From an uncultured Rhodobiaceae bacterium (GTDB lineage Bacteria > Pseudomonadota > Alphaproteobacteria > RS24): a DNA stretch of 40,550 nt. Location of the stretch: NCBI GenBank assembly GCA_913051715.1, contig CAJXCG010000005.1, forward strand, positions 1 to 40,550, given 5' to 3'. Under the pieces are notes generated by a model that was given only the letters and a program-made list of their open reading frames with translations, searched no databases and was not told where the DNA came from. Shown here one piece after another: positions 21,257 through 34,268 of the stretch (its first letter is position 1; each line of letters opens with the position of its first letter). The position numbers and the translations under genes were made by a program.

Positions 21257-21808
21257 GTGTCAGAATATCGTTCCGGCCCGCAAAATGCATCGTTTTTGCA
21301 GGGCCTCATTCTAGCTGGTCTCATTGTTTTCGCCGGCTTTCTGCTCAATGAGCAAGGGCTTATCGGCCTGTTGCTGGCGGGCGACCGCAGCGGCATTTCT
21401 TATCTGATTGCGGGCATTTGGCTGGTTCTCACCTTGCGCTGGTTGTGGTTGTTGCGTTGGGTGCAACGCCAATACGACCTGCCGACCGATTTTGACGCGC
21501 AACACCGCGAAGCGATTTTGGCGCGCTGGCTGAACCATGGCTGGTTCGCTGCCGACGCCGTTTTGAAACTGGGCCTGTTGGGAACCATTATTGGCTTTAT
21601 TCTCATGCTGGCGCCGATTAGCAAATTGAGCGGCTATGATGCGGCAAGCCTGCAAGCCGCGCTGGGCGAAATGAGTGCCGGCATGGCCGTCGCGCTGTAT
21701 ACGACGCTGACGGGGCTGGTCGCCAATTTACTGCTGCGCCTGCAATTTCAAATATTGTCTGACGCCATGCAGGAATATTTGCTCGAACTGGGCCGCGACC
21801 CCTCATGA
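21257..21808 (+). CDS. MotA/TolQ/ExbB-type proton channel protein
   Basis: The 183-residue inner-membrane protein has four hydrophobic segments (about 13-30, 46-68, 101-120, 141-160). The third has the family core GLLGTIIGFILML (Thr110), and the fourth has LGEMSAGMAVALYTTLTGLVANLLL, matching the G-x-ALxTTxxGLxxAI pattern that lines the ion path in TolQ, ExbB and MotA. It is shorter than ExbB/TolQ (~230). GTG start with GGGGAG eight bases upstream. Its stop overlaps the next start (ATGA, 21805-21808). Such proteins form pentamers around a dimer of an ExbD/TolR/MotB partner, here the next gene. Target machine unknown. Confidence 0.85.
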   Translation: MSEYRSGPQNASFLQGLILAGLIVFAGFLLNEQGLIGLLLAGDRSGISYLIAGIWLVLTLRWLWLLRWVQRQYDLPTDFDAQHREAILARWLNHGWFAADAVLKLGLLGTIIGFILMLAPISKLSGYDAASLQAALGEMSAGMAVALYTTLTGLVANLLLRLQFQILSDAMQEYLLELGRDPS

Positions 21809-22419
21809 TCGGCAAAGATCTGTTTCCACCCGATGACGACCAGAACCCGTTCACGGATGTTTTGTTCAATGCCTTGCTCGGTTTTGCCTTCATGTTCTCG
21901 GTGGCGTTTATCATGATCCGCCCGGAAATCACGCAAGGCAAGGTTAACCCCAAGGCCGAATTTCTGATCACCGCGCAATGGCCGGACAATCATCCCGACG
22001 ATATCGACCTGATAGTCGAAGACGCGACCGGCAATCTGGTCTGGTTCGACACGCGCGAGGCGGGTCTGATGCATCTTGACCGCGATGATCGCGGCAGTCT
22101 GAACGACGCGCTGACGGTCAATGGCGAGCGCATTGAAAACCCGCTCAATCAGGAAACCGTTACCTTGCGCGGCATTGCGGCGGGAGAATATGTGGTCAAT
22201 CTGCTGCATTACCGAGCGGTGACGGGAAACCCCGTGCCGGTAAAGGTCAAGGTTGAGAAATTAAACCCCAGCGTTTCGGTGGTGTTTGCGGGCACCAACA
22301 TATTAACCGGCGCGGGCAATGAGCAAACGGCTGTGCGCTTTAGTCTTGATGCCATTGGCAATGTGTCGAAAATTTACACGCGCGATAAGGCGCTGATCCG
22401 AGCCGGAGACAAGCCATGA
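21805..22419 (+). CDS. ExbD/TolR-like protein with DUF2135-like periplasmic domain
   Basis: The 204-residue product has a short cytoplasmic end, then one membrane helix NPFTDVLFNALLGFAFMF at residues 14-36. Asp18 sits exactly where ExbD, TolR and MotB keep the proton-binding aspartate (PFIDVMLVLL in ExbD). The periplasmic part is not an obvious ExbD/TolR fold or an OmpA peptidoglycan domain. Instead DDIDLIVEDATGNLVWF (65-81), LDRDDRGS (91-98) and IAAGEYVVNLLHYRA (124-138) resemble the DUF2135/YfaP-type beta-sandwich; this match is from memory of the pattern. It overlaps both neighbours by ATGA, so the three genes are translationally coupled. Confidence 0.7.
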   Translation: MIGKDLFPPDDDQNPFTDVLFNALLGFAFMFSVAFIMIRPEITQGKVNPKAEFLITAQWPDNHPDDIDLIVEDATGNLVWFDTREAGLMHLDRDDRGSLNDALTVNGERIENPLNQETVTLRGIAAGEYVVNLLHYRAVTGNPVPVKVKVEKLNPSVSVVFAGTNILTGAGNEQTAVRFSLDAIGNVSKIYTRDKALIRAGDKP

Positions 22420-22976
22420 ACATTCCCCTGCTGCTCGGCATTGCCTATGCGGTGGTCGCCGCGCTTCTGCTCAATTTGAATTTGGCAAGCCCATGGCGCC
22501 GCGAAATTAAAATCGCCGCGATATTTTTGGTCACCGCGCTTTATGTGGGAGCTTATATTGGCGCGCAGAATTTGCGCGGCTGGGCGATTGCCGAAGCCCC
22601 CGAAAACCCCTTCAAGCTGCATTGGGCGGTGATTGACGAACCCGACAAGGTCAATGGAACCGCGGGCCGCATTTACATTCTTGCCCAGCCCATGGCCGCG
22701 GGAGGTGCGTTGCGTGGCGCCCCGCGCCTACACGCGCTGCCGTTTTCGCCGGAACTGGCGGATGCCGTGGAGGAGGCGCTAGAGCAAATTGAAGGCGGCA
22801 AGCCGTTTGAAGCGCGCCTTGCCTATAAACAGGCCAGCCCGCCCGAAGAGGCTAAAATTCAAAAGCGCGAAGGCCAGAGCGCAAGCCAGGATTCGGCGGG
22901 TGAGCGCAACACATTGAAACTGGAGTTCCGCGATTTACCCGTGCCCGACCTGCCCCCCAAGGGCAGCGTCAACTGA
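22416..22976 (+). CDS. Membrane protein of unknown family, third gene of the ExbB/ExbD-like operon
   Basis: The 186-residue product has two membrane helices near the N-terminus (IPLLLGIAYAVVAALLLNL, 3-21, and IKIAAIFLVTALYVGAYIGA, about 31-50). A soluble region follows with HWAVIDEPDKVNGTAGRIYI and LHALPFSPELADAVEEALEQI, then a low-complexity, charged, proline-rich tail ending LPPKGSVN. I do not recognise the family. The ATGA overlap with the ExbD-like gene says it belongs to the same machine. The soluble region after a second helix could be cytoplasmic or periplasmic; topology was not computed. It converges on the PQQ dehydrogenase with a five-base gap. Confidence 0.72.
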   Translation: MNIPLLLGIAYAVVAALLLNLNLASPWRREIKIAAIFLVTALYVGAYIGAQNLRGWAIAEAPENPFKLHWAVIDEPDKVNGTAGRIYILAQPMAAGGALRGAPRLHALPFSPELADAVEEALEQIEGGKPFEARLAYKQASPPEEAKIQKREGQSASQDSAGERNTLKLEFRDLPVPDLPPKGSVN

Positions 22977-22981
22977 GCGGA

Positions 22982-25228
22982 TTAATTTGTCAGCGCGCTT
23001 GTCTGCTCTTCAAGGTTTGTGTCTGCCTTGGCTTCTTCCTGCAATTTGTAATCCTCCCAAGCGCGTGCGTTGATATAGGCATAAATGCTATCAACATCCG
23101 CCGCGCTCAAGCGGTCGGAGAAGTTCGACATGCCGCGATCTTCCAGCACACCTTCAAGCACAATCTCGTTGAACATGCGGTGGGTCTGATCGCTCATTTT
23201 CCGCAAATCAGGGATCGCCGGGCCACCATAGGCACCAATCCCATGACAAAAAGCACAAACCTCGCCATATAGCTCGCCGCCCAGTTGGATCTGGGCCGCA
23301 GACGCCTCGACAATCGGCGGCTCGGGAATTTCGCGCGCCCAATGCTCCGGCTCGTCAATCGACAAACCGCCATTGAGTTTGAACACCAGCATGCGGCCAA
23401 AATTGCCATATTTGGCGGAGGCCGGCATTGCCAGATCACCCTCCGTCAGGCCGGCGGCACCGCCGGAGCCAACTTGAATGGCAACATATTGCTCGCCGCC
23501 CACGGCGTAGGTAATGGGCGGCGCGATGATGCTGGTATAGGTATTGACCTTCCACAGTTCATCGCCATTTTGCGCGTCATAAGCGACGAAATAACCATCG
23601 CCATTTCCTTGAAAAACCAGATCGGCCGCCGTCGACAACGTGCCCCCGTTCCAGTGCGTGCCATGCTCGCGCGTCCAGTGCGTTTTGCCCGTCAGCGGGT
23701 CAAACGCCATGATATAGCCCTTGCCTGCCGGCAGGTCGGGGTGCTCGCCCAGCAATTCCATCAGCCGTCCGAACTCGACGCCGGTATTCCAGCCGCCTTC
23801 AATATATTTGAACCGACCCGTTGCCTTGAAATCATGTTCGACATCAAACACCAGCGGGTTTTCGAGAGCGGGAATATACACCAATCCTGTGTTTGGGTTG
23901 AACGACATGGACTGCCAGTTATGCCCGCCAAGCGGCCCGGGCAAAATCCATTGCGAGTCGCCGGTCAAAAAATCCTTATCCGGGTTTTCAACCGGGCGTC
24001 CGGTTTCCATATCAATATGCGACGCCCAATTTACCGTGACATAAGGGTTGGCACGCAGCAATTCGCCGGTTTGCCGATCGAGCACATAGAAGAAGCCGTT
24101 TTTAGGCGCCTGCATAATGACTTTTCGCATTTTGCCGTCGATTTCCAGATCGGCCAGCATCATGTCTTGCACGGCTGTATAATCCCAATTATCGCCGGGC
24201 GTGGTCTGGTAGTACCAGCGCATTTTGCCCGTATTGGCATCGACGGCAACGATGGACGACAAAAACAGATTATCGCCGCCGCCCGGAGACCGGATGGTGC
24301 GCGTCCAGGGTGAGCCATTGCCAACCCCCAAAAATACCGTGTCGGTTTCGGCGTCATAAACGATCGAATTCCAGACCGTTCCGCCGCCGCCGATTTTCCA
24401 CCATTCGCCGCCCTTCCAAGTCGATGCCGCGACTTCCATTTCGGGGTGTTCAAACGGCTTTGAGGGATCGCCGGGCACGGTGAAGAAGCGCCAGTCCAAA
24501 TCGCCGGTTTTCGTGTCATAAGCCGATACATAGCCACGCACGCCGTACTCACCGCCGCCATTGCCAATGAATACGCGGCCATTGGCGACGCGCGGAGCAC
24601 CCGTGATCGTATATGCGCGGGTGCGGTCAATAATTGTGTTGATGCGCCAAATCACCTCGCCCGTTTCGGCATTGAGCGACACGAGATAGCCGTCCAGTGT
24701 GGCGATATAGACAGCGCCTTCATAAACCGCCACGCCGCGATTGACGACATCGCAACACGCTTTGCGCGCCCAGTCGCCCGGCACTTCCGGGTCATACGAC
24801 CAAATTTCCTCGCCGGTCTTGGCATCAACGGCAAAAACCACACTCCAAGATCCGGTCATATACATAATGCCGTCAACCACGATGGGGGAAGCCTCAAGGC
24901 CGCGATTGGTAAACATGTCGAACGACCAGGCAAGTTCCAGATCCTTGATCGACTGCTTGTTAACTTGCGTCAGCGGAGAAAAACGCTGTTCGCCATAATC
25001 ACGCCCATAAGCCAACCAATCTCCGGGGGTCTCGTCGGCCGCCAATATACGTTGGGTATCAATAAGCCCGACATTTGTGCTCGCCGCCGCCTGGATCGGG
25101 GCATCGGCCTCAGAACGCTCAAGCGGCGTTGATTTGAGGACGCCCACCAGCGCCAATGCTGCGATAGCGCCCAGCGCGATCACATTTACAATCGTCGCCT
25201 GCTTTTGATTCAAAGTCGGATGTGCCAT
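22982..25228 (-). CDS. PQQ-dependent alcohol dehydrogenase with fused cytochrome c
   Basis: A 748-residue quinohaemoprotein alcohol dehydrogenase. After an N-terminal membrane/signal segment (residues ~12-32) comes an eight-bladed propeller with repeated W-docking motifs (GEEIWSYD, GEVIWRIN, GDLDWRFF and others). Vicinal Cys158-Cys159 (RKACCDVVNRG) is the rare disulphide that contacts PQQ. GDNWDYTAVQDMML carries the catalytic-region aspartate. The C-terminal domain binds haem c through CAFCH at 658-662 with Met700 a likely sixth ligand. It would oxidise primary or secondary alcohols in the periplasm and pass electrons to a cytochrome. AGGGAGGG lies before the ATG. No PQQ biosynthesis genes are in the window. 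Divergent from the flavin monooxygenase. Confidence 0.94.
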   Translation of the reverse strand: MAHPTLNQKQATIVNVIALGAIAALALVGVLKSTPLERSEADAPIQAAASTNVGLIDTQRILAADETPGDWLAYGRDYGEQRFSPLTQVNKQSIKDLELAWSFDMFTNRGLEASPIVVDGIMYMTGSWSVVFAVDAKTGEEIWSYDPEVPGDWARKACCDVVNRGVAVYEGAVYIATLDGYLVSLNAETGEVIWRINTIIDRTRAYTITGAPRVANGRVFIGNGGGEYGVRGYVSAYDTKTGDLDWRFFTVPGDPSKPFEHPEMEVAASTWKGGEWWKIGGGGTVWNSIVYDAETDTVFLGVGNGSPWTRTIRSPGGGDNLFLSSIVAVDANTGKMRWYYQTTPGDNWDYTAVQDMMLADLEIDGKMRKVIMQAPKNGFFYVLDRQTGELLRANPYVTVNWASHIDMETGRPVENPDKDFLTGDSQWILPGPLGGHNWQSMSFNPNTGLVYIPALENPLVFDVEHDFKATGRFKYIEGGWNTGVEFGRLMELLGEHPDLPAGKGYIMAFDPLTGKTHWTREHGTHWNGGTLSTAADLVFQGNGDGYFVAYDAQNGDELWKVNTYTSIIAPPITYAVGGEQYVAIQVGSGGAAGLTEGDLAMPASAKYGNFGRMLVFKLNGGLSIDEPEHWAREIPEPPIVEASAAQIQLGGELYGEVCAFCHGIGAYGGPAIPDLRKMSDQTHRMFNEIVLEGVLEDRGMSNFSDRLSAADVDSIYAYINARAWEDYKLQEEAKADTNLEEQTSALTN

Positions 25229-27665: not shown

Positions 27666-28430
27666 ATGACGACTATTTTGAAAAACTGGAAGACCGCTGC
27701 TGCAGCTGCTGTCTTCGCCATGATGCCGACATTGGCGTCTGCTGCTAATCTGCAGTCGGACGATTATGTCGGGATTTCTTTCTGGCTGATATCCATTGCG
27801 ATGGTCGCCTCAACTGTTTTCTTCTATGCGGAAGCTCGCCGTGTTGGCGGGAAGTGGGGCGTATCGCTGCTCGTTGCAGCTTTGGTTACCTTAGTCGCAG
27901 CAGTTCACTACTTTTATATGCGTGAAGTCTGGGCAACGACGGGCGAGTCACCGACCGTCTACCGTTACATTGACTGGCTGATTACCGTTCCACTTCAAAT
28001 GATCGAATTTTATTTGATCCTTGCTGCAGTTGGAGCTGCAACTAGCAGAATCTTCTGGCATCTGCTCGTCGGTACGCTGGTCATGCTTCTGGGCGGTTAT
28101 TTCGGCGAAATTGGAGTGATCGACGCAACGATCGGCTTTGTCATCGGAATGGCTGGCTGGGTATATATCCTCTACTTTATTTTTGCAGGGGAAGCTGGGA
28201 AGAACGCCGCGACCACATCGCCTGCTGTCCAAAGTGCATTTAGCGCTATGCGCCTAATTGTACTAGTAGGTTGGTCTATATACCCGCTTGGTTATGTGCT
28301 TGGGTACCTGACAGGCTCAGTAGACGCCGCATCGCTAAACGGCATCTACAACATTGCTGATTTCGTCAACAAAATCGCTTTTGGTCTGATGATCTGGGCA
28401 GCTGCTACTTCTGAAGAAGCCTCAGCTTAA
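27666..28430 (+). CDS. Proteorhodopsin, light-driven proton pump, predicted blue-absorbing
   Basis: The 254-residue product has a signal sequence (cleavage near ASA-A, residue 26) and seven helices. Key residues by position here (green proteorhodopsin number in brackets): proton acceptor Asp103 (D97), donor Glu114 (E108), the helix-B histidine His81 (H75), counter-ion Asp232 (D227) and the retinal Schiff-base Lys236 (K231, in FVNKIAFGLMIW). This is the DTE-type outward H+ pump. The spectral tuning residue equivalent to L/Q105 is Gln111, the blue form. Alanine codons are mostly GCT/GCA, unlike the GCC/GCG of neighbours, which suits transfer or high expression. It has its own promoter region and terminator. 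No blh or crt retinal genes are in the window. Confidence 0.98.
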   Translation: MTTILKNWKTAAAAAVFAMMPTLASAANLQSDDYVGISFWLISIAMVASTVFFYAEARRVGGKWGVSLLVAALVTLVAAVHYFYMREVWATTGESPTVYRYIDWLITVPLQMIEFYLILAAVGAATSRIFWHLLVGTLVMLLGGYFGEIGVIDATIGFVIGMAGWVYILYFIFAGEAGKNAATTSPAVQSAFSAMRLIVLVGWSIYPLGYVLGYLTGSVDAASLNGIYNIADFVNKIAFGLMIWAAATSEEASA

Positions 28431-29086: not shown

Positions 29087-29956
29087 CTAATCGCCCAGCG
29101 CAATACGCATCAAATGATAACTGATCAGGGCAGCCGTAAAATCGCTGACCGGCTGGCCCGAAACGGGAGCCAGTTCCACCACATCAATGCCTTTGACGCA
29201 GCGCCCGCATGCTGCACTTTCAACCAGATCGAGCGCCTGATAAAACCCAAGGCCGCCGGGTACCGGCGTGCCGGTTGAGGGCAGAACGGACGGGTCGAGG
29301 CCGTCGAGATCAAAGGTGATATAGACGTTTTCGGGAAAATCATCCGGAAGCGTTATAGCGTGCGTGTCGTCGCGCATTAACTGACGCGCATCATGTGTTA
29401 TGACGCCATGGGCTTGGCGCGCTGTATCTTCTTCGGCCGACAGCGCGCGCACGCCAAACGACACCATGGCCAACCCCTCGCCCGCCAGCAAATGCATGAC
29501 ACTGGCATGGGAAAATTTATGTCCCTGATAGGCGTCGCAAAAATCTGCATGCGCGTCAACATGGATAAGCCCGACTGGGCCAACCGCATCGACAACCCCC
29601 ATAACGGCGCCATAGCTGATGCTGTGTTCGCCGCCTAGCGTGACCGGAACATGCCCGCGCCGCGCAATCTCGCCTGTCAAATAACGCAAATCCTGCATGA
29701 CCCCATCGACAGCTTGAGCGCAATTTACAGGCGGGTGGGTAAAAATTCCCTCGCGGCACGGCTCGCCATCATAAACCAGCCTTTCAAGCTGATGGCTGGC
29801 TGCGATAATGGCCGATGGGCCATGCGCGGTGCCCGTGCCATAGGAAACCGATGCCTCCAGACCACACGGCACCACCTCAAAGCGCGCCGTATCGCGCATG
29901 TTTTCCGACGCCGCAAGCTCTTCGCCCAAAAATTGATCCGCAGATATCCGGCTCAT
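29087..29956 (-). CDS. speB: Agmatinase (ureohydrolase family)
   Basis: Agmatinase hydrolyses agmatine to putrescine and urea with two Mn2+. The metal ligands are all present: His111 in GGEHS, Asp134, His136 and Asp138 in HVDAHADFCD, and Asp216 and Asp218 in TFDLDGLDPS. The 289-residue size and the substrate loop VPGGLGFYQ fit agmatinase rather than arginase. It is the last gene of the polyamine operon and overlaps the preceding decarboxylase stop by ATGA (29953-29956). Arginine decarboxylase in the same operon provides its substrate. Related guanidino-acid hydrolases share the fold, but context favours agmatine. Confidence 0.92.
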   Translation of the reverse strand: MSRISADQFLGEELAASENMRDTARFEVVPCGLEASVSYGTGTAHGPSAIIAASHQLERLVYDGEPCREGIFTHPPVNCAQAVDGVMQDLRYLTGEIARRGHVPVTLGGEHSISYGAVMGVVDAVGPVGLIHVDAHADFCDAYQGHKFSHASVMHLLAGEGLAMVSFGVRALSAEEDTARQAHGVITHDARQLMRDDTHAITLPDDFPENVYITFDLDGLDPSVLPSTGTPVPGGLGFYQALDLVESAACGRCVKGIDVVELAPVSGQPVSDFTAALISYHLMRIALGD

Positions 29957-31113
29957 GACAAACGCCCCTCAAAATCGGCATAATCAAACGCGCGCACGAC
30001 CCGCAAAGCATCCGTGTCGCTGTTCCATACAGCAAGTGCCGGCAGGGGTACGCCGTTGAACGTCGTGGTTTTCACCATGGAATAATGTGCCTGATCAAGA
30101 AAAGCCAGCCGATCGCCGGGCTGCGGCGGCGCGCTGAAGCCATAAGTGCCGATAACATCGCCTGCCAAACAGCTAGGCCCGGCAAGGCGCACGCCGTCAC
30201 CATCGGCCTGCTCATCGCGCAAGGCCGGACGATATGGCGCTTCCAAAACATCCGGCATGTGGCAGGTGGCAGAGACATCCAGCACCGCAACAGCCCCGTC
30301 ATTTTCCATGACGTCCAGCACCTCGCCGACCAGAATGCCCGCGTCAAAGGCGACGGCAGTACCCAGTTCGAGATATACCCGCACACCATATTTGTGGGTC
30401 AGCGCATTTATAAGTTCGCCAAGCGCCTCGCGCTCATAATCTGGGCGGGTGACCAAATGCCCGCCCCCCAGATTGAGCCAGTTTAATTGCGCCGCCACCT
30501 TATCCAGAAACGGAACCAGCGCGTCTACCGTGCGCGCCAGCGGCGCAAAATCCTGCTCGCACAAAGTATGGATATGCAGACCGCGTACCATTTCCGGCAG
30601 GGTGCCCTCAAGCTGCGGCAGCGGCGTGCCGAGCCGTGAGCCGGGGGCACACGGGTCGTATTTTGCCACTTGCCCTTCCGAATGCATCGGGTTCACGCGC
30701 AAGCCCAGCTCGGCCTGAGCCGCACCAATCTGCGCGCCAAAGCGCGCTGCCTGTTGCGCGGTGTTGACGATAACATGGTCAGACAAATGCGCGATCTCGG
30801 CAATTTCATCAGACTTAAAAGCCGGTGCATAGGTGCTGACATGGCCGCCAAACCGCGCGCGCGCAAGTTTGGCTTCCCAAAGACCCGACGCGCAACACCC
30901 GTCGAGATGCGCGCTGATGAGCGGGGCCAGTTCCCACATGGAAAATGCCTTGAGCGCCAGCAAAATATTTGCATTGGCCGCAGTGCCCAGCGCTTGCAAA
31001 ATGGCAAGATTGTGCGCCAATGCCACCTCATCGACCACGAAACACGGGCTGGGCACCCGCGTCAGGTCAAAATCGGCAAAGCGGCCCGCGCCGGCTGATT
31101 GGGTTGGCATCAT
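29953..31113 (-). CDS. nspC: Carboxynorspermidine/carboxyspermidine decarboxylase
   Basis: A PLP-dependent decarboxylase of the alanine-racemase fold that turns carboxyspermidine (or carboxynorspermidine) into spermidine (or norspermidine). The 386-residue product opens with PSPCFVVDEVALAHNL and carries the PLP lysine in LLALKAFSMW (Lys55), then DGCCASGLWEAKLAR, all diagnostic of NspC. HTLCEQDF and LNLGGGHLVTRPDYE also match. The ATG at 31113 begins two bases after the dehydrogenase stop; a TTG six bases earlier would overlap it. Third gene of the polyamine operon. Confidence 0.95.
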   Translation of the reverse strand: MMPTQSAGAGRFADFDLTRVPSPCFVVDEVALAHNLAILQALGTAANANILLALKAFSMWELAPLISAHLDGCCASGLWEAKLARARFGGHVSTYAPAFKSDEIAEIAHLSDHVIVNTAQQAARFGAQIGAAQAELGLRVNPMHSEGQVAKYDPCAPGSRLGTPLPQLEGTLPEMVRGLHIHTLCEQDFAPLARTVDALVPFLDKVAAQLNWLNLGGGHLVTRPDYEREALGELINALTHKYGVRVYLELGTAVAFDAGILVGEVLDVMENDGAVAVLDVSATCHMPDVLEAPYRPALRDEQADGDGVRLAGPSCLAGDVIGTYGFSAPPQPGDRLAFLDQAHYSMVKTTTFNGVPLPALAVWNSDTDALRVVRAFDYADFEGRLS

Positions 31114-31115
31114 GG

Positions 31116-32321
31116 TCAAAAATCCAACGGCGCTGACAATTCTGTCACCTGCCAGGGCAGACCGTGTTTGGTCAAAAGTTCCATAAACGGGTCCGGGTCG
31201 AGTTGTTCAAGGTTGAAAACGCCGGGCTTGCGCCAAGTGCCGTTCGACATCAATGTCGCCCCGATCATGGCCGGCACGCCCGTTGTGTAGCTGACCGCCT
31301 GACTGCCCACTTCGGCAAAACACGCTTCGTGGTCGCACACATTATAGAGGTAAACCGTGCGCGGCTGACTGGCATGTTGGCCCGACACAATATTGCCTAT
31401 GCACGTTTTCCCCGTGGTGGTTTTGCCGAGGTCGCCGGGGTCGGGCAACACCGCTTTCAAAAACTGCAAGGGAATGATCTCCCTCCCCTCATACATAACC
31501 GGCTCAATCGCTGTCATGCCGACATTTTGCAGAACTTCCAAATGCGTCAGATAGGCGTCACCAAAGGTCATCCAAAACCGGGCGCGTTCAAGCGCAGGAA
31601 AATGCTTGGTGAGCGATTCCAGTTCTTCGTGATACATGAGATACATATTGCGCGCGCCAACTGAGGGAAAATCGAAAGTTTCGCGGTGCGATAGGGCTGG
31701 CGTTTCCACCCAGCCGCCCGCTTCCCAATGGCGCGCGGGCGCGGTGACCTCACGAATATTAATCTCGGGATTGAAATTGGTCGCAAAATGCTGGCCGTGA
31801 TCGCCGCCATTGCAATCCAGAATGTCCAGCGTGTGCATATCCTCGACATAATGCTTGGCGATATAGGCGGTAAAAACATTTGTAACGCCTGGGTCAAAAC
31901 CGCTGCCCAACAGCGCCATGATGCCGCGCTCGACAAAGCGTTCATGATAGGCCCATTGCCAGTGATACTCGAACTTTGCCTCGTCGCGCGGTTCGTAATT
32001 TGCCGTGTCCAGATAATCAACGCCCGTCTCGAGACAGGCATCCATAATAGCGAGATCTTGATAGGGCAGCGCCAAATTGACCACGAGATCCGGGTTGAAC
32101 CGTGCGATCAGATCGACCGTATTTTGCGTAACGTCGGCATCAAGCTCCGCCGTTTCAATTTTCACACCAAAACGCTTGGCCACGCTTTGGGCTATTTCAT
32201 CGCATTTGGCAACACGTCGGCTGGCCAGCAAAATATCACCGAAAACATCCGGACACATCGCCATTTTGTGGACAGCAACCGACCCGACGCCGCCAGCGCC
32301 GATAACCAAACTGCGCGTCAC
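31116..32321 (-). CDS. Carboxynorspermidine/carboxyspermidine dehydrogenase (saccharopine dehydrogenase-like)
   Basis: This enzyme condenses putrescine (or diaminopropane) with aspartate semialdehyde and reduces the product with NADPH to carboxyspermidine (or carboxynorspermidine). The 401-residue product has the Rossmann motif LVIGAGGVGSVAVHK at the N-terminus, LASRRVAKCDEIA, and VVNLALPYQDLAIMDACLETGVDYLDTANYEP (quoted here as LALPYQDLAIMDACL and VDYLDTANYEP), the pattern of the Lys1/carboxynorspermidine synthase group. It lies 18 bases after the arginine decarboxylase gene and two bases before nspC. Adjacent nspC makes the assignment much stronger than lysine metabolism. Confidence 0.94.
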   Translation of the reverse strand: MTRSLVIGAGGVGSVAVHKMAMCPDVFGDILLASRRVAKCDEIAQSVAKRFGVKIETAELDADVTQNTVDLIARFNPDLVVNLALPYQDLAIMDACLETGVDYLDTANYEPRDEAKFEYHWQWAYHERFVERGIMALLGSGFDPGVTNVFTAYIAKHYVEDMHTLDILDCNGGDHGQHFATNFNPEINIREVTAPARHWEAGGWVETPALSHRETFDFPSVGARNMYLMYHEELESLTKHFPALERARFWMTFGDAYLTHLEVLQNVGMTAIEPVMYEGREIIPLQFLKAVLPDPGDLGKTTTGKTCIGNIVSGQHASQPRTVYLYNVCDHEACFAEVGSQAVSYTTGVPAMIGATLMSNGTWRKPGVFNLEQLDPDPFMELLTKHGLPWQVTELSAPLDF

Positions 32322-32339
32322 GCCGCACCTCCGCTATCT

Positions 32340-34268
32340 TTAATGCTCAAAATAAGTATAGCCATGAATACTATCTTTGAAGGCGTCAATCATCGCGCGC
32401 CGATCGCGCGCGCTTATGGCACCGTCATGCACGGCACGCTCGACAATCGCCTTGAACCCGTCAACCAGCCGACGCGGTTCGTATTCGACATAAGTCAGAA
32501 CTTCCGCGACCGTATCGCCTTCTTGTTCGTGCATCAGCTCAAACCGGCCATCGCTTTGCAATTCGACCGTCACCACATTGGTATCGCCGAATAAATTATG
32601 CAGATCGCCCAGCGTTTCTTGATAGGCGCCAACGAAAAACACGCCCAGATAATAGTCACTCGCCGCATTAAGCGCATGCACGGGCAGGGTTTTCGCCACA
32701 CCGTCGCCGAGCACGAAACGGTCGATCTTACCGTCGCTGTCGCACGTAATATCGCTGATGACAGCGCGGCGTGTGGGCTTTTCACGCAAGCGATGCAGCG
32801 GCGCGATCGGGTGCAACTGGTCGATGGCCCAGACATCCGGCAAGCTTTGGAACAAAGAAAAATTGCCGTGATAAATATCCGCCGCCTGCTGAACAGCCAA
32901 TTCCATCTCATCATTATCGCCCTCGACACCGGCCAGCAGCGTTTTGATGCGGTTCATGAGATATAAGTGCACGCGCTCGGCTTTGGCCGTCTCGCGCAAG
33001 CTGACCTGCCCGGTCTTTAACAGCGCACGCATTTCATTGCGGTAAAAAACCAGATCATTCCAACATTCATGCACACGCTCGGCGTTCAAATAGCTTTCAA
33101 TATTGAGCATGTTTTTGAGGATCATGTGATCGTCAGGATGCGCCCAAACCGGCTCCGGGCTGTCATAGCGCGTCGCCTCCAGCACGTTGAACAGCAGCAT
33201 GGAAGATTGCGCCACGCACGAGCGCCCGCTTTCGGTGATAATGACCGGATGCTCCATCTCGGCCTCATCCATGGCATAGCGCACGGTTTCGACAATGTTC
33301 AGACAATATTCGGACAATGTGTAATTGGTGGAGTTTTCCGCCGCGCGATGTTCGCCGGTATAATCAACCCCCAGACCGCCGCCCAGATCCAGAAATTCAA
33401 GCGGTGCACCCTCGCGCGATATTTCAATGAAAAATCGGCACGCTTCCTGAGCCGCCATGCGGATCTCGATAATATTCGGCACCTGACTGCCCAAATGGCT
33501 GTGCTGCAATTTCAGGCAGTCGAGATAGTGGCGCGCGCGCAGCGCATCGACCACATCCATGACTTGGGCAATGCTCATGCCGAAGGTTGAGCGGTCACCG
33601 CTGGACGCTGCCCAATTACCGCTCACCTTGTGGGTGAGCTTGATGCGGATGCCAAGTTGCGGGCGCACCTCCAATGCATCGGCCTCGCGCAAAACCAGAT
33701 CAACCTCGCGCGGGCTTTCCAGCACGATAAACACATTAAAACCGAGGCGTTGCGACATCAGGGCGAGGCGCACAAATTCGGCGTCTTTGACACCATTGCA
33801 AATCAGCGCGGCGCGCGGCCCCAAATCTTGCGCCAGCGCAATCAGAAGTTCGGCTTTGGAGCCGATCTCAAGGCCAAAATCATGCGGCCTGCCATAGTCC
33901 ACAATGCGGTCAATAACTTGTGCTTGCTGATTAACCTTGACCGGAAAAACGCCCTGATAACGGTTTTTATAGCCTTGTTCCTCAATGGCTGCCGCGAACA
34001 GCGCATTGATCTGGTCGATGCGATACGAAATAAAATCGGCTACCCGCAGCAGCACTGGCGCGGTAATGCCGCGCTCGTTCAGGCTGTCAATAATATGCAT
34101 GAGATCGGTCGGCACCGCATCGGGACGGTCGGGATGCACCAGACCGATATGACCATTTTCCAGAATTCGGATAAACCCGCCACCCCAGCGCGAAACACCA
34201 TACAACGCATCGGCACGTTCGATTTCGGGATGGGACGGCAACGCCACAGTATTTTGTGCTTCAGACAT
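32340..34268 (-). CDS. speA: Biosynthetic arginine decarboxylase
   Basis: SpeA decarboxylates arginine to agmatine with PLP and Mg2+. The 642-residue product is close to the usual 630-660. The PLP lysine is Lys111 in YQGVFPVKVNQQ; LDLGGGLGVDY, ITESGRSCVAQSS and the C-terminal YLGVFFVGAYQETLGDLHNLFGD (quoted here as GVFFVGAYQETLGDLHNLF) complete the alanine-racemase-fold enzyme. First gene of the four-gene polyamine operon; GGGAG lies six bases before the ATG, and the 68-bp spacer to the divergent GIY-YIG gene must hold its promoter. Confidence 0.97.
   Translation of the reverse strand: MSEAQNTVALPSHPEIERADALYGVSRWGGGFIRILENGHIGLVHPDRPDAVPTDLMHIIDSLNERGITAPVLLRVADFISYRIDQINALFAAAIEEQGYKNRYQGVFPVKVNQQAQVIDRIVDYGRPHDFGLEIGSKAELLIALAQDLGPRAALICNGVKDAEFVRLALMSQRLGFNVFIVLESPREVDLVLREADALEVRPQLGIRIKLTHKVSGNWAASSGDRSTFGMSIAQVMDVVDALRARHYLDCLKLQHSHLGSQVPNIIEIRMAAQEACRFFIEISREGAPLEFLDLGGGLGVDYTGEHRAAENSTNYTLSEYCLNIVETVRYAMDEAEMEHPVIITESGRSCVAQSSMLLFNVLEATRYDSPEPVWAHPDDHMILKNMLNIESYLNAERVHECWNDLVFYRNEMRALLKTGQVSLRETAKAERVHLYLMNRIKTLLAGVEGDNDEMELAVQQAADIYHGNFSLFQSLPDVWAIDQLHPIAPLHRLREKPTRRAVISDITCDSDGKIDRFVLGDGVAKTLPVHALNAASDYYLGVFFVGAYQETLGDLHNLFGDTNVVTVELQSDGRFELMHEQEGDTVAEVLTYVEYEPRRLVDGFKAIVERAVHDGAISARDRRAMIDAFKDSIHGYTYFEH

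Follow-up and report, generated by a model that had tools for sequence, protein, structure and literature searches.

A conserved three-gene unit beside a PQQ-dependent alcohol dehydrogenase looks like an unnamed variant within the 5:2 motor superfamily

Results

Three coupled genes at the locus

The window, a 40,550-nt stretch of DNA, comes from a PS1-clade alphaproteobacterium. A preliminary description of this DNA had placed three ATGA-coupled genes at 21257–22976, which was confirmed by the coordinates of the open reading frames and by overlaps at 21805 and 22416 that couple genes 1, 2, and 3. Gene 1 (21257–21808, + strand) has a GTG start and encodes 183 aa, gene 2 (21805–22419, + strand) encodes 204 aa, and gene 3 (22416–22976, + strand) encodes 186 aa. 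We refer to them jointly as the trio. The closest relatives of gene 2 that we retrieved were 90%–94% identical.

Gene 1 encodes a channel subunit of the MotA/TolQ/ExbB type. It matches the MotA_ExbB family (PF01618) at E = 2.6e-8 and 34.1 bits, above the curated cut-off of 22.9, and it contains the motifs GLLGT (residues 106–110; 21572–21586, + strand) and LYTTLTGL (residues 147–154; 21695–21718, + strand), so that the core recognized in the preliminary description stands. Thr110 is presumed to line the pore, with the second motif supplying a second presumed pair of pore threonines; G106, G109, and T110 were invariant among 13 aligned homologues. Four hydrophobic stretches can be made out by eye. 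The cytoplasmic loop is very short, unusually so in the PS1 and f46 genomes.

Gene 2 combines a single helix with a periplasmic beta-sandwich. The AlphaFold2 model, built from 48 aligned homologues (mean pLDDT of 82.7), has one helix, the predicted pore helix, at residues 15–38 (21847–21918, + strand) and strands only across residues 53–191 (21961–22377, + strand), mostly at pLDDT >90, with a spacing of about 14 residues from helix to folded domain. Motifs conserved in the domain are DDID, HLDRDDRG, and PLNQE. Compared with the PDB by Foldseek, the model had no match at E ≤ 1e-3, and ExbD and TolR were missing from the top 50. The preliminary description had held that this periplasmic part is not of the ExbD/TolR kind, and the all-beta model agrees; an ExbD/TolR fold, which would have spoken against that claim, was not seen. 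A search of the genome with PF02472 found four ExbD/TolR genes, gene 2 not among them, and when gene 2 was compared by profile with the TolR-type and ExbD-type proteins encoded in that genome, the probabilities were 2%–7%, which are not significant. Three features therefore carry the analogy with ExbD: the PFTD motif, the single helix, and the adjacent channel gene. Separately, we noted two ExbD-like genes in the same genome (locus L147, 1091–1941, G000:C19), one with the usual Asp (PLID) and the other with Asn (PLIN).

Gene 2 of the window had no match in Pfam, NCBIfam, or PADLOC. Among its homologues, 13 of the 48 matched DUF2135 (PF09906; best E = 6.3e-5), and a profile comparison with Escherichia coli YfaP gave E = 8.8e-5 and a probability of 60%. 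The DUF2135-type domain proposed earlier is thus upheld in part, as a weak similarity that recurs among homologues, with the window protein itself unmatched.

Gene 3 was modeled with two transmembrane helices (residues 3–24 and 29–53; 22422–22574, + strand) followed by a small mixed domain, probably periplasmic, at a mean pLDDT of 69.7, below that of gene 2. It had no family match in Pfam, NCBIfam, or PADLOC, and its model had no PDB match at E ≤ 1e-3 (Foldseek), in keeping with its earlier reading as a two-helix protein of no known family.

The trio is conserved in Alpha- and Gammaproteobacteria

Relatives of gene 2 were found in the GTDB collection at 52 loci in Alpha- and Gammaproteobacteria, down to about 45% identity and with the same neighbors, which argues that the three frames are real genes. 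A redundant set of 143 gene 2 loci yielded gene 1 at 136 and gene 3 likewise at 136, and the trio thus keeps together beyond close relatives. Of the exceptions that we inspected, some are contig ends, one (L112) is a lone second copy, and others (L118, L119, L140) are very divergent copies. Among 289 evenly drawn Alphaproteobacteria, 43 carried gene 2, of which 22 had a copy close to the window type (the close subfamily) and 21 a distant one; the distant type occurs in Azospirillum brasilense Sp7, on a megaplasmid. Cultured bacteria with the close type include Maritimibacter dapengensis, Sinisalibacter aestuarii, and Oceanobacter mangrovi (L055, L062, L078). In the openly licensed literature that we searched, we found no description of the trio, no mention of DUF2135, and no joint mention of "proton channel family protein," PQQ, and alcohol dehydrogenase.

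An aspartate of the predicted pore helix was replaced three times

The preliminary description had placed Asp18 of gene 2 at the position of the Asp in the NPFTDV motif of ExbD/TolR. This holds for the window protein (codon 21856–21858, + strand) but not family-wide. Asp18 is kept in 68 of the 95 distinct gene 2 homologues that have the column, distant subfamily included, and is replaced by Ala, Val, or Ser in the other 27. A Lys is found one or two helix turns on, at residue 22 or 25, in every one of the 27 Asp-less homologues and in none of the 68 that retain the Asp. Loci of the Lys type include L060, L076, and L134.

We built a tree from gene 1 together with the periplasmic part of gene 2, leaving out the columns of the helix. 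It requires three changes, and when the tree was rebuilt without long rows, three lay within the 5%–95% range of 200 bootstrap trees. Approximately unbiased (AU) tests rejected a single clade of all Asp-less rows (P = 4e-93) and the joining of the two LFKxxQ groups into one clade (P = 1e-5). Loss of the Asp and gain of the Lys arose three times independently. The Asp-less genomes that we checked from the two even draws (G294, G319, and those of family f150) had one gene 2 match each, and no Asp-bearing twin was seen in them. The presumed pore threonines of gene 1 persist: T110 is present in 94% of the relatives that have the Asp and in 100% of those that lack it, and T150 in 100% of both alike (close subfamily). 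A comparison of gene 1 columns made no new acidic residue evident that could pair with the Lys.

Among the Asp-less relatives is a gammaproteobacterial clade in which gene 3 is doubled in every locus of sufficient length. Two tandem copies of gene 3 are present at L065–L070, L072, and L076, all of which fall in this Asp-less clade.

The close subfamily accompanies a PQQ-dependent alcohol dehydrogenase

The preliminary description had noted that no TonB, Tol, flagellar, or Zorya defense genes are near. There is, however, an informative neighbor: a gene for a PQQ-dependent alcohol dehydrogenase (22982–25228, − strand; 748 aa) is convergent with gene 3 and ends 5 bases away from it, and nearly all close-subfamily genomes have such an enzyme. 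The gene matches TIGR03075 with 651 bits (cut-off of 480) and has a C-terminal cytochrome c match at residues 637–723. This neighbor, overlooked earlier, appears to be a clue to function.

In the even draw of 289 Alphaproteobacteria, TIGR03075 was found in 20 of the 22 close-subfamily carriers and in 50 of the 246 noncarriers (Fisher P = 3e-11); such co-occurrence counts include genomes of the same family, which are not phylogenetically independent, and counted by family the figure for close carriers is 11 out of 12. A draw across the phylum gave 11 out of 11 carriers (P = 4e-7), and 31 of 34 genomes from further retrieved loci had the enzyme. The PQQ-type ABC ATPase (PQQ_ABC_ATP, TIGR03864) was likewise seen in 13/22 close carriers versus 24/246 noncarriers. 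The distant subfamily (Azospirillum and others) stood at background level, with the dehydrogenase in 6/21 genomes (P = 0.4).

The trio and PQQ genes adjoin in several layouts. PS1 and family f46 have the dehydrogenase convergent to the trio; Rhodobacterales, f29, and f147 have the dehydrogenase and a PQQ-type ABC ATPase around it; at L115, TIGR03863 and TIGR03866 genes lie beside it; and at L137, the trio is directly downstream of pqqB-pqqC-pqqE. A PS1-family genome (G006) has neither trio nor dehydrogenase.

We also searched for PQQ biosynthesis genes. PqqC was not found in the PS1-family carriers or in the f46 genomes with the dehydrogenase, in a search that matched 52 other genomes. PqqE was not found in the PS1-family or f46 genomes either; no control matched in that search, and the same model matched at L137. 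Seven genomes have a PQQ dehydrogenase with neither PqqC nor PqqE found (G000, G007, G009, G012, G073, G178, G258), which suggests that PQQ is scavenged in Alphaproteobacteria. Because the enzyme is present nonetheless, the PS1-family carriers and f46 genomes probably take up external PQQ and need no PQQ export. These genomes retain the trio beside the dehydrogenase, so export of PQQ by the trio is not favored. Among genomes with the dehydrogenase, PqqC was found in 10/20 with the trio and 25/50 without it. This equal frequency suggests that the trio is tied to the enzyme and not to the making or scavenging of PQQ, and scavenging is accordingly not favored as its specific role.

Other genes around the trio

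Gammaproteobacterial loci have other neighbors: near the trio lie genes for an L,D-transpeptidase and for DUF302 and vWA-FHA proteins, together with a sigma-54 two-component pair. In some of these loci (e.g., L049, 7117–8610), the vWA-FHA gene comes immediately after the trio; it recalls vWA proteins tied to TolQ-like motors in a published survey (PMC12204202). In several alpha- and gammaproteobacterial families, a lipoprotein-type gene with an FPL motif and DUF3108-like sequence follows gene 3; profile comparison found gene 3 unrelated to this family. Proteins of this type (YFPL motif, mostly with a lipobox) adjoin gene 3 at L022, L078, L095, L096, L114, L121, L136, L138, and L142, with three copies at L121. 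A Sel1-repeat gene is upstream of the trio in other loci.

Elsewhere in the window, a bacteriorhodopsin-like protein (27666–28430, + strand; PF01036, E = 3.6e-48) indicates that the genome probably also encodes a light-driven ion pump. Genes of the arginase-family, ornithine/arginine decarboxylase, and saccharopine dehydrogenase types stand in a row at 29087–34268 (− strand), possibly a polyamine route.

Discussion

By analogy with the 5:2 motors MotAB, ExbBD, and TolQR, we infer that gene 1 would form a pentameric channel with two gene 2 helices in its pore, carrying a beta-sandwich into the periplasm. Asp18 would be the presumed proton carrier, and gene 3 may contribute a further subunit, with two helices and a periplasmic domain of its own. 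The work would then be done in the periplasm, in the service of quinoprotein alcohol oxidation. We give an even chance to this reading of the trio as a 5:2-type motor variant acting in the periplasm for PQQ-dependent alcohol oxidation. Against it stand the distant subfamily without enrichment of the dehydrogenase, the different gammaproteobacterial neighbors, and the nonsignificant profile similarity of gene 2 to ExbD and TolR.

The weakest step concerns the task itself. The trio follows the enzyme and not the source of PQQ, which leads us to favor, at low confidence, servicing in the periplasm over uptake or export of PQQ. Servicing of the dehydrogenase system (loading, maturation, or remodeling) would be the most likely task, and we put it forward as a speculative suggestion.

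Several other explanations have to be weighed. An ordinary copy of ExbBD or TolQR would account for the PF01618 match of gene 1, and we consider it highly improbable: the PF02472 search that picked out the four ExbD/TolR genes of this genome passed over gene 2, and the predicted all-beta fold, with ExbD and TolR absent from the top 50 PDB matches, contradicts it. The trio could instead be a TonB-like energizer that powers the uptake of PQQ, calcium or lanthanide, or substrate across the outer membrane, by way of a receptor or of the lipoprotein that accompanies the trio. It shares a superfamily with ExbBD, a lipoprotein gene follows it in several alpha- and gammaproteobacterial loci, and PQQ import is probable in the PS1 family, which has the enzyme with PqqC and PqqE not found; in addition, PqqU is reported to be largely absent from Alphaproteobacteria (PMC12124388). 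However, with ∼14 residues from helix to domain in gene 2 and no long spacer in gene 3, neither protein spans the periplasm, a TonB-dependent receptor is not a regular neighbor (one case, L138), and presence of the trio is independent of that of PqqC. On balance, we think such an energizer unlikely.

Co-occurrence with PQQ enzymes could also come from a shared lifestyle, with the trio serving the envelope at large, as a force or stress system. The distant subfamily, which lacks the enrichment, fits this explanation, as do the L,D-transpeptidase and the vWA-FHA protein among the gammaproteobacterial neighbors, but the trio directly adjoins PQQ genes in several layouts, one of them inside a pqq cluster, and 11 of the 12 families with close carriers have the dehydrogenase. 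We consider a merely shared lifestyle unlikely. Finally, the complex might be a sensor and not a motor, reporting membrane energization or the periplasmic state to regulators, with ion conduction dispensable. Two-component regulators and the vWA-FHA protein near gammaproteobacterial trios would suit a sensor, as would the three lineages that have lost the acid of the pore. Yet the pore threonines are kept in the Asp-less lineages and regulators are not constant neighbors, and we judge a sensor to be quite unlikely.

Asp-less lineages are hard to reconcile with a simple proton motor. A tentative extension of the motor reading, which we consider possible and hold with less assurance than that reading itself, would make the trio a class of motor dedicated to alcohol oxidation by quinoproteins. 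In this class the proton-carrying Asp, supposed to be indispensable, was exchanged three times for a neutral residue plus a Lys one or two turns along the helix, giving either a lysine-based ion cycle or no ion flow at all. If the motor reading is true, the three convergent switches would offer a natural test of whether this motor family needs an acid in its pore helix, as forms of one complex that have it and lack it can be set side by side. PQQ enzymes drive the oxidation of alcohols and methanol in many bacteria, and on the same condition these enzymes have their own energized partner in the inner membrane, so far unnamed.

Comparison with known systems

The preliminary description had proposed a separate class of motor. 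Part of this holds: the three genes form a unit of their own that recurs widely and pairs an ExbB-type channel subunit with an ExbD-like helix on an output domain not of the ExbD/TolR kind. The ion-carrying Asp is no fixed feature. To us, the trio looks like a variant within the 5:2 motor superfamily that has so far gone unnamed.

Zorya was considered and set aside. ZorA is the best PADLOC match of gene 1, a weak one (E = 2.7e-4), and the ZorA matches are partial and far below the NCBIfam cut-offs; the long tail of ZorA is missing from gene 1, genes 2 and 3 have no ZorB match, and the setting is not one of defense. Accessory systems of PQQ alcohol dehydrogenases (TIGR03863, TIGR03864, TIGR03866, and the quinoprotein relay hydrolases) recur beside the trio and co-occur with it, and no named family among them is a three-gene ion motor. 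The similarity to DUF2135 proteins such as YfaP is weak and recurrent and runs over the first half of the periplasmic domain; unlike gene 2, YfaP sits in the E. coli yfaPQSTA group, with no ExbB-type partner in the annotated stretch.

With ExbB-ExbD and TolQ-TolR, the trio shares the PF01618 channel subunit, the pore Thr positions, and, in the window and most relatives, a single-helix partner with an ExbD-like PFxD motif. It differs from them in the beta-sandwich on that partner, the extra two-helix subunit, the replacement of the Asp and gain of a Lys in three lineages, and the lack of a spanning protein like TonB or TolA. Those transducers have a long periplasm-spanning segment, whereas in the models of genes 2 and 3 the folds start at most ∼15 residues past the helix. 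A force-transducer survey (Mol Biol Evol 2025; PMC12204202) describes motor partners that bear a vWA domain, and a search of its text turned up neither a beta-sandwich nor a DUF partner. The vWA-bearing partners resemble the trio in that the pore helix bears a periplasmic domain other than that of ExbD or TolR; the trio differs from them in having a weakly DUF2135-like sandwich in place of the vWA domain, followed by gene 3.
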